A stretch of 64,000 bases of DNA, taken from a virus. The notes below the pieces were generated by a model. It was not told where the DNA came from, searched no databases, and saw only the letters and a program-made list of their open reading frames with translations. The stretch is taken from IMG/VR virus record IMGVR_UViG_3300025154_000006, positions 19,469 through 83,468 of that record, one strand, 5' to 3'. The translations under genes were made by a program, and so were the position numbers. This document shows positions 50,801 to 62,134 of the stretch, piece by piece. The stretch's first letter is position 1. Each line of letters begins with the position of its first letter.

Positions 50801-50897
50801 GCCCAACAATGCGTGCACTGGACAATTGGCGGGCGCGGGCAAAGCGGACGGTGAATCTACACCCTCCGCCAATTGCCAGTAACGCTTGCCGTTAGGC
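50801..50897 (+). other. attC site 2
   Basis: GCCCAAC to GTTAGGC, both perfect consensus. Arms GCGTGCACTGG and CCAGTAACGC and the inner ACAATTGGCGG/CCGCCAATTG pair across a short loop. Confidence 0.85.
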
Positions 50898-50906
50898 TTC
50901 TTACTT

Positions 50907-52076
50907 ATGTCAGCAAAAATACTCGAAGGCAATGTCCTTGAAACCCTGAAAGACCTGCCTGCCTGCTCGGTTCAGTGCGTGGTAACTAGCCCGCCTTACT
51001 ACGGCTTGCGCGATTATGGCGTTGAAGGGCAAATAGGTTTAGAGCCTTCCCCCGAAGCCTATGTTGAACAACTTGTAAAAGTTTTCCGTGAAGTGTGGCG
51101 AGTACTAAAAGATGATGGTACTTTGTGGCTCAATCTTGGTGATAGTTATTGGGGCGGCAAAGGTCAATCATCACAGGCTTGATCTACCGAACACCAAGAC
51201 CGCAACACCTTACAAAAGGCACAGCATCAAATAACTGGCAAAGGTGAAACACGTCCCACAGATGGCAAGCATCCAGTTATCAAAGCCAAAGACCTTATCG
51301 GCATCCCCTGGATGGTCGCCTTTGCTTTACGGGCTGATGGTTGGTATCTGCGCTCCGAGATAATTTGGGCAAAGCCTAATCCTATGCCTGAGAGCATGAA
51401 GGATAGACCAACAAAAAGCCATGAGCAAATATTTCTTTTCTCAAAGTCGCCTGATTATTTCTATAACTACGAAGCGATTTTAGAGCCTGCAAATTATGAC
51501 GGGCGAAAAGATACCGTAATGAAAGGCAGTAAGAAATATAAAGATGGTTCTTATCTTGCGAACGGAAACGCAAACAGCCTATCGGTCAAAGGGTGTGAGC
51601 GTTGGCGTTTCAAGAATTTACAGGAAGATGGTCAGCAACCCAACACAATCCACGAAAGACGCGCCGCAGGCTTGAAAGATGAAGTCTATGCCGTCAGAAA
51701 TAAAAGGGATGTTTGGACAGTCAGCACAAAATCTTATAGTGGCGCACATTTCGCCACATTCCCAACAGAATTGATTGAGCCTTGCATTTTAGCAGGCACA
51801 AAGGAAGGTGATACCGTGCTTGATCCGTTCAATGGTTCAGGCACAACAGGCGAAGTATCCATCAAACATCATAGGCTTTATGTCGGTTGTGAGTTGAATC
51901 CGAAGTATGTAAAACTCACACACCGCAGGCTGTCCCAAGTCCAACCCGTCTTAATGCAAGAACGAAGCCTAACACCGCTTGCACTGAACGGGGCTAAGGC
52001 TCCCGATTTCCAGCATTCATTCCCTGCTGATGTACTGGTAGGCGAAGGCGCATTGCCTAAGCCGCCCCGCCAGTAA
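50907..52076 (+). pseudogene. cassette 3: beta-class DNA methyltransferase with internal TGA
   Basis: One frame of 389 codons interrupted only by TGA at codon 92 (51180-51182). TSPPYYGLRDYG near residue 30 is motif IV; TSPPY is typical of N4-cytosine enzymes, though N6-adenine is possible. FNGSGTTGEV near residue 310 is motif I. IV-before-I order marks the beta class. The TGA (perhaps from TGG or CGA) would yield a 91-residue fragment. Without it the enzyme looks intact. Its 3' end lies inside attC 3. No restriction endonuclease is next to it. Confidence 0.8.
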
Positions 52077-54135: not shown

Positions 54136-54375
54136 ATGAAAGAATATATTCTTAGAACCACTGGCGGCGAGGCTGCATGTTTTTTGTCAAAAGAACACGC
54201 AGATAGACTAAAACAAATTGTTAATGGTAAATACATTGAAAAAACATTTTTCCAAACCGGAAAACAAACAGTTTTCGTTTTTAAAGTTAACATGGTTTGG
54301 AAATTAGTAATCGGCATCGAAATTCCTATCTATAAAGAATACTATATCCAAGAGGTCCAAGAGAGCGATCTATGA
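54136..54375 (+). CDS. hypothetical protein, first in radical SAM operon (79 aa)
   Basis: CTAGGAGACAAA precedes ATG. Begins MKEYILRTTGGEAACFLSKE; beta strands then an amphipathic end. Coupled by ATGA to the radical SAM gene, so probably works with it. No family. Confidence 0.6.
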   Translation: MKEYILRTTGGEAACFLSKEHADRLKQIVNGKYIEKTFFQTGKQTVFVFKVNMVWKLVIGIEIPIYKEYYIQEVQESDL

Positions 54376-55442
54376 AACTACACTATTTTGATAAAATCTA
54401 TAACTTTGTAGAGATTTTCGATACTGAAACCGGATTTCATTACACTTCTGGTATTTTGACCGAAAGCGGTAAAGATAGTGGCGTTGATCCATTAATGCGT
54501 TCTTGGCCTGCACTTATGGACATAGGAATTATGGGTGGTTGTTCATCTTCTAAAGTTTGTCAAGTTGGTTGTTATCAACAAGGAAAGAATACGCCAAAGG
54601 GTCATATGTCAGTTGATCTTTTCCGCAAAATCATTGACGAAGCTGCGGGAAAGACTTTTTCTGTAGCCCTGGGTGGTTTTGGCAATCCAAATGAACATCC
54701 AAACTTTCTTGAGATTATTCGCTATGCCAGAATGAAGAATATTGCTCCGTCTTATACTACTGCCGGGACCAATCTAACAGACGCACAAGTACAGGTTACT
54801 AAACATTATTGTGGTGCTGTGGCAGTTTCGTGGCACGATCAACCATATACCTATGGCGCAATTGAGCGTTTTGTGAATGCCGGTTGTATTACTAATATTC
54901 ATTTTGTGGTAGGGAATAACACAATTGATGAAGCTATTAGACGTCTAGAAGAAAACGATTTTCCCAAGGGTATCTACGCTGTTATCTTCTTACTGTATAA
55001 GCCTGTTGGCAAGGGAATGCCAGAAAACCGTCTTAGGGTCACAGATCCGCGTATTCGTAGATTTTATGAACTGATTGAAGCGGAGCATCCCTTTAAGTGC
55101 GGTTTAGATAGTTGCCATATTCCTGGAGTTATGAACTTTACCAAGAACGTCGCTATAGAAAGCATTGTGCCGTGTGACGCCGCAAGATTTTCAATGTATA
55201 TAACACCAGATGGTTTTGCGTTACCGTGTTCATTTGATACCAACAATCGCCAGTATGCTGTTGACATTAAGGAAATCGGTATTCAGGGCGCCTGGGAAAG
55301 CGAGGCTTTTGAGAAATTTAGAAATCATTATAAAACTAGTTGTTCGCACTGCGAAATAAGTAAACGTCTTAACTGCCTTGGCGGATGTGGCCTAATGGCA
55401 GAACAAATCAATCTTTGTAAAGATTATTCTAAAGGAGAATAA
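54372..55442 (+). CDS. radical SAM protein with SPASM-like C-terminus (356 aa)
   Basis: The N-terminal half reads like a radical SAM barrel: a Cys cluster (GGCSSSKVCQVGCYQ, residues 56-70), then SVALGGFGNPNEHPNFLEI and SYTTAGTNLTD. The Cys spacing is C-x5-C-x3-C rather than C-x3-C-x2-C. The C-terminus has C-x12-G-x4-C and C-x2-C-x7-C-x3-C-x10-C, resembling the SPASM domain that binds extra iron-sulfur clusters in peptide-modifying enzymes. It ends 1 bp before three NSSSSSF genes. Palindrome copy 19 encodes the C-S-H-C-E of this domain. Substrate unknown; the adjacent small proteins are candidates. Confidence 0.75.
   Translation: MKLHYFDKIYNFVEIFDTETGFHYTSGILTESGKDSGVDPLMRSWPALMDIGIMGGCSSSKVCQVGCYQQGKNTPKGHMSVDLFRKIIDEAAGKTFSVALGGFGNPNEHPNFLEIIRYARMKNIAPSYTTAGTNLTDAQVQVTKHYCGAVAVSWHDQPYTYGAIERFVNAGCITNIHFVVGNNTIDEAIRRLEENDFPKGIYAVIFLLYKPVGKGMPENRLRVTDPRIRRFYELIEAEHPFKCGLDSCHIPGVMNFTKNVAIESIVPCDAARFSMYITPDGFALPCSFDTNNRQYAVDIKEIGIQGAWESEAFEKFRNHYKTSCSHCEISKRLNCLGGCGLMAEQINLCKDYSKGE
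55342..55356. repeat. 15-bp palindrome copy 19
   Basis: GTTCGCACTGCGAAA, one mismatch, coding for part of the SPASM-like cysteine motif. Confidence 0.8.
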
Positions 55443-55443
55443 A

Positions 55444-55755
55444 ATGAAAATTCATATGTCTTTTGTAACAAATAGCAGCTCATCTTCATTTATCATTATT
55501 GGTACAAATAAACACAACGAGAAGTTTGTAGAAGACAGAGACATCAAAAGTGAACTTTTCTCTGAATTTGAACTTGTTTTCACGCATGAAGGTGATGATA
55601 ACGGCACGGTTTCTATTAGTAATGTCACAAAGCTTCTCTCTGAAATGACAATCCCGCAAGCCAAGCAATACTTTGTTAAAAAAGCCAGAGAGCATGGAAT
55701 TGATATTGATGTAAAAGATGTAACATTTGACTATGGAGGTTACTATAATGGCTAA
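55444..55755 (+). CDS. NSSSSSF-motif protein 1 (103 aa)
   Basis: AAAGGAGAATAAA precedes ATG. N-terminus MKIHMSFVTNSSSSSFIIIG is shared with the next two genes, the rest is unrelated to them: acidic, alpha/beta. Starts 1 bp after the radical SAM stop. The motif recurs in unstudied bacterial and phage proteins as far as I recall; function unknown. Candidate substrate or partner of the radical SAM enzyme. Confidence 0.7.
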   Translation: MKIHMSFVTNSSSSSFIIIGTNKHNEKFVEDRDIKSELFSEFELVFTHEGDDNGTVSISNVTKLLSEMTIPQAKQYFVKKAREHGIDIDVKDVTFDYGGYYNG

Positions 55756-56095
55756 GATCCGTTTATCTTTTGTAACGAACAGTTCTTCTTCGAGTTTTAT
55801 TCTTGCTATTAAAAACGATATTACTCGTGAAGAACTTGAAGAAATTGTAGCCAAGAGGATAAAAGATACCCAATTTTCTTCTGAATTTGATTACTATGAT
55901 GTTGAAACAGAAGAAGAGGCTATTGACAAAATTGTATCTTCGCTATTAGAGGATCTCAAATGTGCCATGGCGCTTGATAACTGGAAGGTACTTGGCGGAG
56001 ATTGCTCAAATGAAAGCGAAGATATTTTCAATGGCTTTATATATCAATGTGGTTTTGAAAACACAGAGAAAATCAAAAATAAGTTTTTTGACTAG
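55748..56095 (+). CDS. NSSSSSF-motif protein 2 (115 aa)
   Basis: Overlaps protein 1 by 8 bp; TGGAGGTTACTATA precedes ATG 55748. N-terminus MAKIRLSFVTNSSSSSFILA, then an acidic body (TREELEEIVAKRI, YYDVETEEEAIDK). Serine codons differ from the other copies, so the motif is kept at protein level. Confidence 0.7.
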   Translation: MAKIRLSFVTNSSSSSFILAIKNDITREELEEIVAKRIKDTQFSSEFDYYDVETEEEAIDKIVSSLLEDLKCAMALDNWKVLGGDCSNESEDIFNGFIYQCGFENTEKIKNKFFD

Positions 56096-56104
56096 GAGAT
56101 AAAA

Positions 56105-56539
56105 ATGTGCAAAATTCATTCATCGTTCATTACGAATAGTAGTAGTTCTAGTTTTGTTATTATTGGAAGAAAGAAATTACAAGATATTGCCTTTCAAGAA
56201 AGTATTCTTGTTGCAGGAAGCGAACTTGGAAAAATCGAATTTGGATGGGGACCAGAAACAATTCGAGATTGGGGAAGTCGTGTTAATTTTGCCTATCTGC
56301 AAACCCTATATCTTGGAGAAAATGGAAAGCAAAAACTTGAAATGCTCGAAAAGATTCTCCGAGAATGTCTTAAAGTAAAAGAAATCACCTGGAAACTCAC
56401 TATGGATGAAGGATATATTGATCATCAGTCGTCTGCGATTGAAGGAGAAAATCTTGAAATTTTTGAAAGTGAAGAACTCTTAAGGCAATTTCTGTTCGCG
56501 GAAGATTCTAAAATTGTTTTAAATAACGATAACTACTAA
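56105..56539 (+). CDS. NSSSSSF-motif protein 3 (144 aa)
   Basis: TAGGAGATAAAA precedes ATG. N-terminus MCKIHSSFITNSSSSSFVII; the body has a helical acidic segment (LEMLEKILRECLKVKEI) and a different ending. Third tandem member of the set. Confidence 0.7.
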   Translation: MCKIHSSFITNSSSSSFVIIGRKKLQDIAFQESILVAGSELGKIEFGWGPETIRDWGSRVNFAYLQTLYLGENGKQKLEMLEKILRECLKVKEITWKLTMDEGYIDHQSSAIEGENLEIFESEELLRQFLFAEDSKIVLNNDNY

Positions 56540-60854: not shown

Positions 60855-61457
60855 ATGAACGAAGCATCTGTACGATTGGCTTTACACCACGCCTTGCAAT
60901 GGAGAGGATACTGGCCTAAACACGATAGCGATGGACGCAAATACCCTGTACCATGCGTAAAGTGTCATCGCGTGAATTGGCTTATGGTAACGCCAGAGAT
61001 CAAAGGTTTGCCAGACACCAATGGTCGTCATCCGCGGTTTCCTTCTCCACTGATTGAAGTCAAGGCGGTAAAAGCCACCGAACGATCCTTTGCTTTCAAT
61101 TCTATTACTCCCGAACAAAGAGAGTATTTGTCTGCCTGGGCAAAAGAAGGTGGCGGTAGTTATCTTTGTCTAGGTAAGATTGTGCCTATGGGAAGCAAAG
61201 AAAAGATACGCCAAATTTTAGTTATCCCTTGGTTGGAATGGCTAAAAATTGAGGATAATTATGACAAAAGTATTCCCTGGGATTATGCTCTTTACGAAAA
61301 GCAACCATCTCTACCACGGCAAAGCGATTTTATGAGTTTGGTATTCTCATGGTGGCATTTAGTTCGCACTGCGAACGAATGGCATTTTCCTGACGATCAT
61401 CCGCTTTCGGTTATACCTGAAATCGAAACGCCGTTTTTCAAGAAAGGCAAATTATGA
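60855..61457 (+). CDS. RecU/VRR-type nuclease-like protein (200 aa)
   Basis: IEVKAVKATERSFAFNSITPEQREYLSAW near residue 56 matches the catalytic strand and following helix (E-x-K with downstream S-F-x-F and Q) of Holliday-junction resolvases of RecU type and related VRR-Nuc proteins. A C-x2-C near residue 35 (PCVKCHR) is an added zinc half-site. Likely resolves recombination or replication junctions. TAGGAGGCTAGA upstream; palindrome copy 22 encodes VRTANEW. Confidence 0.65.
   Translation: MNEASVRLALHHALQWRGYWPKHDSDGRKYPVPCVKCHRVNWLMVTPEIKGLPDTNGRHPRFPSPLIEVKAVKATERSFAFNSITPEQREYLSAWAKEGGGSYLCLGKIVPMGSKEKIRQILVIPWLEWLKIEDNYDKSIPWDYALYEKQPSLPRQSDFMSLVFSWWHLVRTANEWHFPDDHPLSVIPEIETPFFKKGKL
61362..61376. 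repeat. 15-bp palindrome copy 22
   Basis: Perfect GTTCGCACTGCGAAC inside the nuclease gene. Confidence 0.85.
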
Positions 61458-62134
61458 CTAGTGGAATTTATCAAATAAAGAATAAGGTAAACAATAAGAT
61501 ATATATTGGCCAAGCCATCAACTTAAGTAAAAGAAAAGCCGAACATTGGAGTTGCCTGCGAGGTAAATACCATTACAATTCTCATCTACAGCGTGCCTGG
61601 GATAAATACGGCGAAGAAAATTTTAGATTTATAATATTGCTTTGTTGCGAATCGGCAGAATTGTCTTATTATGAACAAGTGTTGGTAAATTTATTAAATC
61701 CGAAATATAATATTCAAAAAGAGTGTACAACTAGTCCGTTAGGAACAAAACTTTCCAAAGAACACAAGGCAAAAATCTCAAAAAGCCTTAAGGGAATTAA
61801 GCGCTCTCAACAAACTAGAGAAAAAATTTCAAGATGTCGTAAAGGAATAATATTTTCAGATGAACATAAGAGGCACTTACGTGAAAATCATGTCGGTAAT
61901 TTAGGTAAGCATTGTTCTGAAGAAACAATACAAAAAATGGCCCTTGCTCAGAAAGGCGACAAGAATCACATGTTTGGTAAACATATTTCCGAGGAGCATA
62001 AACAAAAAATATCAATGTCTAACAAAGGTAACAAAAGGTTACTGGGATATAAACAATCGGATGAACACAGAAGACATATATCAGAATCTATGTTAGCGAG
62101 ACAAAATGAAACCAGAACCCAAGAAGATACATAG
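61454..62134 (+). CDS. GIY-YIG homing endonuclease with NUMOD3 repeats (226 aa)
   Basis: GIYQIKNKVNNKIYIGQAI is the catalytic motif, then R (LSKRKAEHW) and E (YYEQVLVNLLNPKYN). Repeats of the type S-x-E-H-x-x-K-I-S from residue 95 match NUMOD3. Paralogue of the minus-strand enzyme at 39814. Begins in an ATGA overlap, overlaps the next gene by 29 bp. Confidence 0.85.
   Translation: MTSGIYQIKNKVNNKIYIGQAINLSKRKAEHWSCLRGKYHYNSHLQRAWDKYGEENFRFIILLCCESAELSYYEQVLVNLLNPKYNIQKECTTSPLGTKLSKEHKAKISKSLKGIKRSQQTREKISRCRKGIIFSDEHKRHLRENHVGNLGKHCSEETIQKMALAQKGDKNHMFGKHISEEHKQKISMSNKGNKRLLGYKQSDEHRRHISESMLARQNETRTQEDT

Follow-up and report, generated by a model that had tools for sequence, protein, structure and literature searches.

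A radical SAM maturase known so far is typically devoted to a single peptide or a single family of enzymes. The enzyme anSME acts on sulfatases at the motif C/SxPxR. Short N-termini that stay constant while the rest of a small phage protein varies are familiar from the internal proteins of phage T4, where they represent the capsid-targeting sequence; these proteins are not known to have a radical SAM enzyme, their constant sequence differs from the one described here, and they are not a feature of cellular genomes. anSME is a SPASM radical SAM enzyme, which converts Ser or Cys into formylglycine (PMC8326336). The triceptide maturases XncB, OscB and MscB are SPASM enzymes as well, which join an aromatic ring at position i to the C-beta at i+2; MscB makes a Phe-Ser bond, and HaaB can use Ala as the acceptor (PMC11002830). 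According to Kaur et al. (2020; PMC7159879), vWA-MoxR conflict systems include a radical SAM enzyme whose presumed target is a peptide effector; FxSxx peptides occur there with an rSAM/SPASM enzyme and FtsH-associated peptides with another rSAM, which is said to be related to Memo-Ammecr1 rSAMs. The serine tag described here is absent from the text of that paper, and the passages considered describe neither phages nor multi-substrate tags.

Here, we analysed a window of 64,000 nucleotides, taken from a virus record in IMG/VR (IMGVR_UViG_3300025154_000006) that is 83,468 bases long and has a phage portal gene. An earlier note on this DNA had described a radical SAM/SPASM-like gene directly followed by three genes whose products share the N-terminus only, and we found exactly this arrangement (Table 1). 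The three proteins are alike in their first 16-17 residues, the tag, which has the form (M)(x)K-I-x-x-S-F-[VI]-T-N-S-S-S-S-S-F, and their bodies belong to different families. The gene of tagged protein 2 overlaps the end of the preceding gene by 8 bp, its start being the ATG at 55748 and not the mechanical TTG start of the open reading frame at 55727. The DNA pattern of the motif occurs three times in the window compared to 0.00 copies expected from shuffles, and these three tags are the sole copies in the whole record. Scans for promoters and terminators remained at chance level. The small gene at 54136, which the note had considered as a possible partner, was abandoned in this role, since it has no relative at any related locus.

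Table 1. Coordinates of the radical SAM/SPASM gene, the tagged genes and their tags in the window.
Feature	Position	Strand	Basis
Radical SAM/SPASM enzyme (window enzyme)	54372-55442	+	356 aa; SPASM match, family alignments, AlphaFold, PDB fold matches
Tagged protein 1, tag MKIHMSFVTNSSSSSFI	55444-55755	+	Open reading frame and motif; body relatives adjoin clade A enzymes
Tagged protein 2, tag MAKIRLSFVTNSSSSSFI	55748-56095	+	Open reading frame and motif; phrog_7397 (5e-4); body relatives
Tagged protein 3, tag MCKIHSSFITNSSSSSFV	56105-56539	+	Open reading frame and motif
Tag 1 core MSFVTNSSSSSF	55456-55491	+	Motif
Tag 2, residues 1-17	55748-55798	+	Motif
Tag 3, residues 1-17	56105-56155	+	Motif

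The window enzyme matches the SPASM domain PF13186 (E 7e-9) and phrog_7293 (1e-20), and it gave no match to the Pfam Radical_SAM model. According to family alignments, the radical SAM cluster cysteines C57, C63 and C67 are invariant or nearly so, with the spacing CX5CX3C in the window enzyme and CX3CX2C in many family members, and the auxiliary-cluster cysteines C248, C268, C286 and C327 are invariant across the family; the radical SAM cluster thus accounts for three of the seven family-invariant cysteines, and one auxiliary cluster for the other four. The window enzyme keeps extra C-terminal cysteines. Many enzymes of the clades A2 and B (e.g. L038, L049, L018) do without them, hence a second auxiliary cluster seems dispensable. 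The AlphaFold model of the window enzyme is confident (pLDDT 92, pTM 0.91) and finds fold matches in the PDB with SuiB, PqqE, CteB, BtrN, anSME (4k38) and SkfB, with Foldseek values of E 5e-11 and probability 1.00 for SuiB, and a profile search of the PDB returned SkfB, BtrN, PqqE and anSME. By profile and fold, SkfB, SuiB, PqqE and CteB are the closest solved relatives, all of them peptide-modifying SPASM enzymes, and the nearest folds in general are mostly those of enzymes with peptide or protein substrates. Cysteines, SPASM domain and modelled fold together place the predicted enzyme in the SPASM/twitch subgroup of the radical SAM superfamily. No NCBIfam model came near its cut-off for the whole enzyme, neither with the window enzyme nor with a bacterial member; for the latter, the sulfatase_rSAM model reached 11.8 bits against a cut-off of 349, and the Xye, Grr and Fxs maturase models did not appear among the enzyme matches listed. 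A single-sequence locus search with the window enzyme retrieved no related loci, and a profile was needed.

The motif was searched in IMG/VR as a DNA pattern for F[VI]xNSSSSSF[VI], in which three serines were fixed as TCN. This motif-only scan yielded 101 stretches, nearly all of which encode M-K-[IVT]-[RK]-x-[GDS]-F-[VI]-[ST]-N-S-S-S-S-S-F at the start of small, differing proteins, with as many as seven tagged proteins in one locus at the first count. Across the family, the tag reads M-K-[IV]-[RK]-x-[GDS]-[FY]-[VI]-[ST]-N-S-S-S-S-S-[FY]-[IV]. Asn10, Ser11 and Ser12 are each present in 370 of 370 tags, 364 of 370 have Phe or Tyr at position 16, and 371 of 373 have an aromatic residue at position 7; when counted as F, Y, H or W, position 7 is occupied accordingly in 566 of 568 tags, with Ser or Thr at position 9. 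The serines 13-15 are at times replaced by Thr, Ala, Asn or Cys, natural variants including NSSSAN, NSSSTS and NSSSSD. The earlier note had observed that the serine codons differ among the copies and had concluded that selection acts on the peptide. This holds beyond the window, in which AGY and TCN codons are mixed: across the family all six serine codons occur at every tag serine position, which argues for selection on the peptide. AlphaFold predicts residues 1-13 of tagged protein 3 to be disordered in front of a confidently folded body, as would be expected of an accessible substrate peptide. A tblastn search with a 23-residue tag gave no match, probably due to the low-complexity filter.

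The bodies behind the tag are diverse. All loci together encode 612 distinct tagged proteins of 56-1073 aa (median 138), which fall into 193 body clusters including 139 singletons, and in an alignment of 100 representatives the tag alone is conserved (4% mean column identity). Up to nine fold-unrelated tagged proteins adjoin a single enzyme gene. PHROG 7397, whose function is unassigned, matches 28 of the 100 representatives, via the N-terminal part in the case shown. In bacteria, the tag precedes, among others, BspA-type leucine-rich repeats, BRCT domains and a beta-propeller. At five loci (L263, L264, L291, L307, L318), BspA-type or DUF285 LRR proteins carry the tag where a signal peptide would be expected in exported relatives. 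The fold of the tagged protein 3 body has no match in the PDB. An apparently tagged baseplate protein (L062) turned out to be a false match of the relaxed pattern.

The pairing of enzyme and tag is widespread, extending over hundreds of phages and gut bacteria. An enzyme homologue is present in 66 of the 101 motif-selected IMG/VR loci; with the window included, enzyme and tagged gene lie on the same strand in 66 of 67 loci, the tagged gene is downstream in 62 of these, and the median gap amounts to 18 bp. A search of the whole records of 29 further motif-bearing stretches revealed the enzyme elsewhere in 17. Some tag-bearing records are without the enzyme (e.g. G011, 261 kb), but such records may be incomplete. 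From the enzyme side, we used profiles of two enzyme clades, with no recourse to the motif. The strict tag was found within 5-6 kb of the enzyme in 52 of 78 clade A phage loci, 61 of 80 clade B phage loci and 50 of 80 bacterial loci, and the relaxed tag, in which natural variants were allowed, in 65 of 78, 64 of 80 and 67 of 80, respectively, compared to 1 of 339 in the reversed-sequence control. Per set, 13-16 loci lack a nearby tag; many of them are fragments or have the tag elsewhere in the record. All 12 records of at least 110 kb without an adjacent tag contain one elsewhere, RB43-like phages included, and the five records without any tag are all 67 kb or shorter. The Pseudotevenvirus enzymes, which have no tag in their vicinity, had seemed to be counter-examples, which was overturned by whole-genome search: each RB43-like record tested has two tagged genes approximately 20 kb away from the enzyme. 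Among 50,697 records of a cultured-phage collection, 172 contain the enzyme and 174 and 175 the two tagged proteins of phage Lw1, in the same host group; since this is one lineage, it counts as one observation. In Lw1, the radical SAM enzyme is gp161, and gp111 and gp116 are tagged. A set of 200 Lachnospiraceae genomes contained the enzyme (E below 1e-40) in six cases and the tag in four, and all four are among these six (hypergeometric estimate ~2e-7, or ~8e-6 without the genome used as search centre); in the two remaining genomes the matches are partial. Bacterial contigs of 1.0-1.8 Mb likewise carry the pair (L316, L328). The earlier note had made its proposal depend on co-occurrence across genomes, and the pairing holds whether one starts from the motif, from the enzyme or from whole bacterial genomes.

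On the tree, the two enzyme clades are fully separated, the window enzyme belonging to clade A, and the type of tag follows the clade. At clade A loci, all 299 tags have Thr before Asn (one further match represents a false frame), and at clade B loci all 242 have Ser, in counts that allowed Ser, Thr or Gly at this position. When the position was left open, nine Ala and one Asn appeared, and Thr and Ser never crossed the clades. All four tags of one locus (L250) have Ala before Asn (FVANSSSSSF) on four different bodies, which reads as a concerted tag change within one genome. Ten body families are common to both clades and carry Thr with clade A (123) and Ser with clade B (97) without exception; the Fisher value of 5e-65 overstates the independence of these cases, since the Thr/Ser switch represents a single change on the enzyme tree. 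Hence, the match of clade and tag is partly due to shared descent. The repeated agreement across body families is the stronger point and the source of independence in these sequence comparisons. Tagged protein 3 of the window, for instance, carries FITN, and its nine body relatives from other phages (28-49% identity) all carry FVSN.

Sequence thus establishes that enzyme and tag are paired and in which order they lie in the operon, that N-S-S and the aromatic residues are invariant, and that each enzyme clade has its own type of tag. We consider it highly probable that the 54372 gene encodes a dedicated peptide-modifying enzyme and that the tag on the unrelated proteins is its substrate. There is strong support from sequence for the enzyme recognising the tag, as the tag changes with the enzyme clade in the way expected of a recognised substrate; the interpretation of the earlier note, in which the Asn/Ser motif could be the recognition or modification site, is supported. 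Modification of the tag by the enzyme is likely. The enzyme would bind the tag on the newly made, still flexible N-terminus and would abstract a hydrogen within tag residues 7-12, and the tag would represent a portable site of modification, attached to a large number of protein bodies. It is with moderate confidence that we extend this to a general protein-marking system, in which one enzyme per genome would give up to nine or more unrelated proteins the same rare modification. If this is true, the marked proteins may have a destination in common, for instance assembly, anchoring or activity in infection or conflict.

Regarding the chemistry, the order of residues in F7-V8-[ST]9 corresponds to the triceptide substrates, i.e. 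an aromatic residue at i and an acceptor at i+2, and the clade-dependent residue 9 fits a carbon-carbon crosslink between Phe7 and C-beta of residue 9. The resulting three-residue cyclophane (-2 Da) is one of two leading candidates for the product, which we put forward tentatively. The other, somewhat less probable, is a serine oxidation as in sulfatase maturation (-2 Da); the invariant Asn-Ser-Ser would agree either with this reaction or with recognition. Other radical chemistry takes the remaining probability. An EpeE-like epimerisation is less likely, because the seven invariant cysteines are all engaged in the two clusters and none is left as hydrogen donor. Thioether formation requires Cys, and since the tag is without a conserved cysteine, most members can have no thioether inside the tag.

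Comparison with the known systems shows a general precedent in RiPP-type maturases for the layout of a constant peptide beside a maturase, as had been noted before, and the maturase gene indeed lies beside the substrate gene. The unusual feature is that the constant peptide forms the N-terminus of many whole, unrelated proteins, several per genome. Assignment to the typical RiPPs, with their short precursors and removal of a leader, was rejected, the putative substrates being whole proteins and no shared protease or transporter family lying nearby. Likewise, SkfB, SuiB, PqqE and CteB are each devoted to a single small precursor peptide and the triceptide maturases act on small RiPP precursors, whereas the tag enzyme is paired with whole proteins. 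anSME resembles the window enzyme in its SPASM fold and in the modification of a short motif inside a whole protein, but here the motif lies at the N-terminus of unrelated proteins, and of the auxiliary-cluster cysteines just four are conserved throughout the enzyme family. In the open-licence PubMed Central literature searched, no paper describes the tag-enzyme system, nor does any NCBIfam model.

RiPP maturases often bind a leader while the residues that they modify lie in another segment, so the tag could serve for docking while the enzyme modifies the protein body, and the tolerance of S13-S15 to change would agree with such a role. However, the bodies share nothing beyond the tag, as is evident from the many singletons and the 100 representatives, hence a common body site is absent, and nothing else is as constant as the flexible N-S-S core; we consider docking without modification of the tag improbable. 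In a different explanation, the tag is a virion targeting signal comparable to the capsid-targeting sequence of T4 and the enzyme adjoins it for another reason, for which one may cite the several small tagged proteins per phage genome and the two tagged proteins of the T4-like RB43-group phages. This is quite improbable, given that the pair resides on megabase-sized bacterial contigs and that tagged proteins reach 1073 aa and include LRR or BRCT domains; moreover, packaging would not explain why, on bodies common to both clades, the type of tag goes with that of the enzyme. Identity with a T4-type sequence was rejected for the same reason, its restriction to the phage virion being incompatible with bacterial chromosomal copies on LRR and BRCT bodies, so that a phage-only packaging signal is insufficient. 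Targeting could, nevertheless, be a downstream use of the modified tag.

It is also conceivable that the tagged proteins regulate or inhibit the enzyme, which would then act on another cellular molecule, as a constant peptide could occupy the active site without turnover. So many fold-unrelated tagged proteins beside one enzyme gene are hardly compatible with this assumption, nor are the nearest folds, which mostly act on peptides or proteins, and we assign it a very low probability. Finally, the motif is short and repetitive, and serine runs might arise by chance or low complexity, but the expectation of 0.00 copies per window, the single relaxed tag in the reversed sequences and the mixed serine codons make this explanation negligible. 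Modification of the tag itself thus remains our preferred reading, and it would be of interest for several reasons. Hundreds of proteins that are alike only in their short front end are linked to one enzyme family, and the pair is hosted by large and T4-like phages and by mostly anaerobic bacteria. If true, this reading represents a novel means by which unrelated proteins acquire one rare modification in common, provides a possible role for many 'hypothetical' phage genes that are recognisable at sight by the tag, and offers a portable tag that could serve site-specific protein chemistry. The E. coli phages RB43, RB16 and Lw1 make the system testable.

The surroundings of the pair vary. At the loci examined, no third conserved partner such as a protease, transporter or docking protein was found, and beyond enzyme and tag no gene family is common to the loci of both enzyme clades. 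The other recurrent families are opposite-strand open frames, phage structural genes of a single clade (tail sheath/tube) and clade-limited families. At clade A2 phage loci (e.g. L081, L009), the pair is situated in the tail module beside opposite-strand tail sheath/tube-like genes. In RB43-like phages, a protein that has a vWA domain according to the Miro annotation is encoded between the two tagged genes (L342 2902-5121, Lw1 gp114; L343 2991-5207, its equivalent in Miro). Directly upstream of one bacterial enzyme lies a gene for a protein of 1756 aa (L289 22-5289) that combines two AAA domains with an M41 (FtsH-type) peptidase, and other bacterial copies are near a DrmD-like helicase (L288 11-1369), a NERD/SLFN helicase (L337 3462-5336) or a MoxR-like AAA ATPase (L316 9307-10812). 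The latter three neighbours possibly indicate a conflict-system context. With the vWA-MoxR systems described by Kaur et al. (2020), the pair has in common that a radical SAM gene adjoins a predicted peptide substrate in bacteria and that an F-x-S motif is present, to which the double AAA/M41 gene upstream of the enzyme at L289 may be added. Among 77 flanking proteins of bacterial loci, no AAA or vWA family was dominant, so we treat the link to conflict systems as no more than a lead. Membership in the vWA-MoxR FtsH ternary system, which would require MoxR, vWA and double FtsH genes at the locus, was rejected on the basis of these flanking proteins, as neighbours of this kind occur at single loci only. 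The same applies to defence systems in general, for which the window enzyme gave only a marginal viperin-like match and no dominant neighbour family emerged.

Two further observations concern the remaining window. A DNA methyltransferase at 50886-52076 is split over two open frames (50886-51182 and 51312-52076), the downstream one of which matches DNA methyltransferase families, hence the gene looks broken or interrupted. Furthermore, the N-terminus encoded by the open reading frame at 61454-62134 resembles a GIY-YIG homing endonuclease (GIYQIKNKVNNKIYIGQA).
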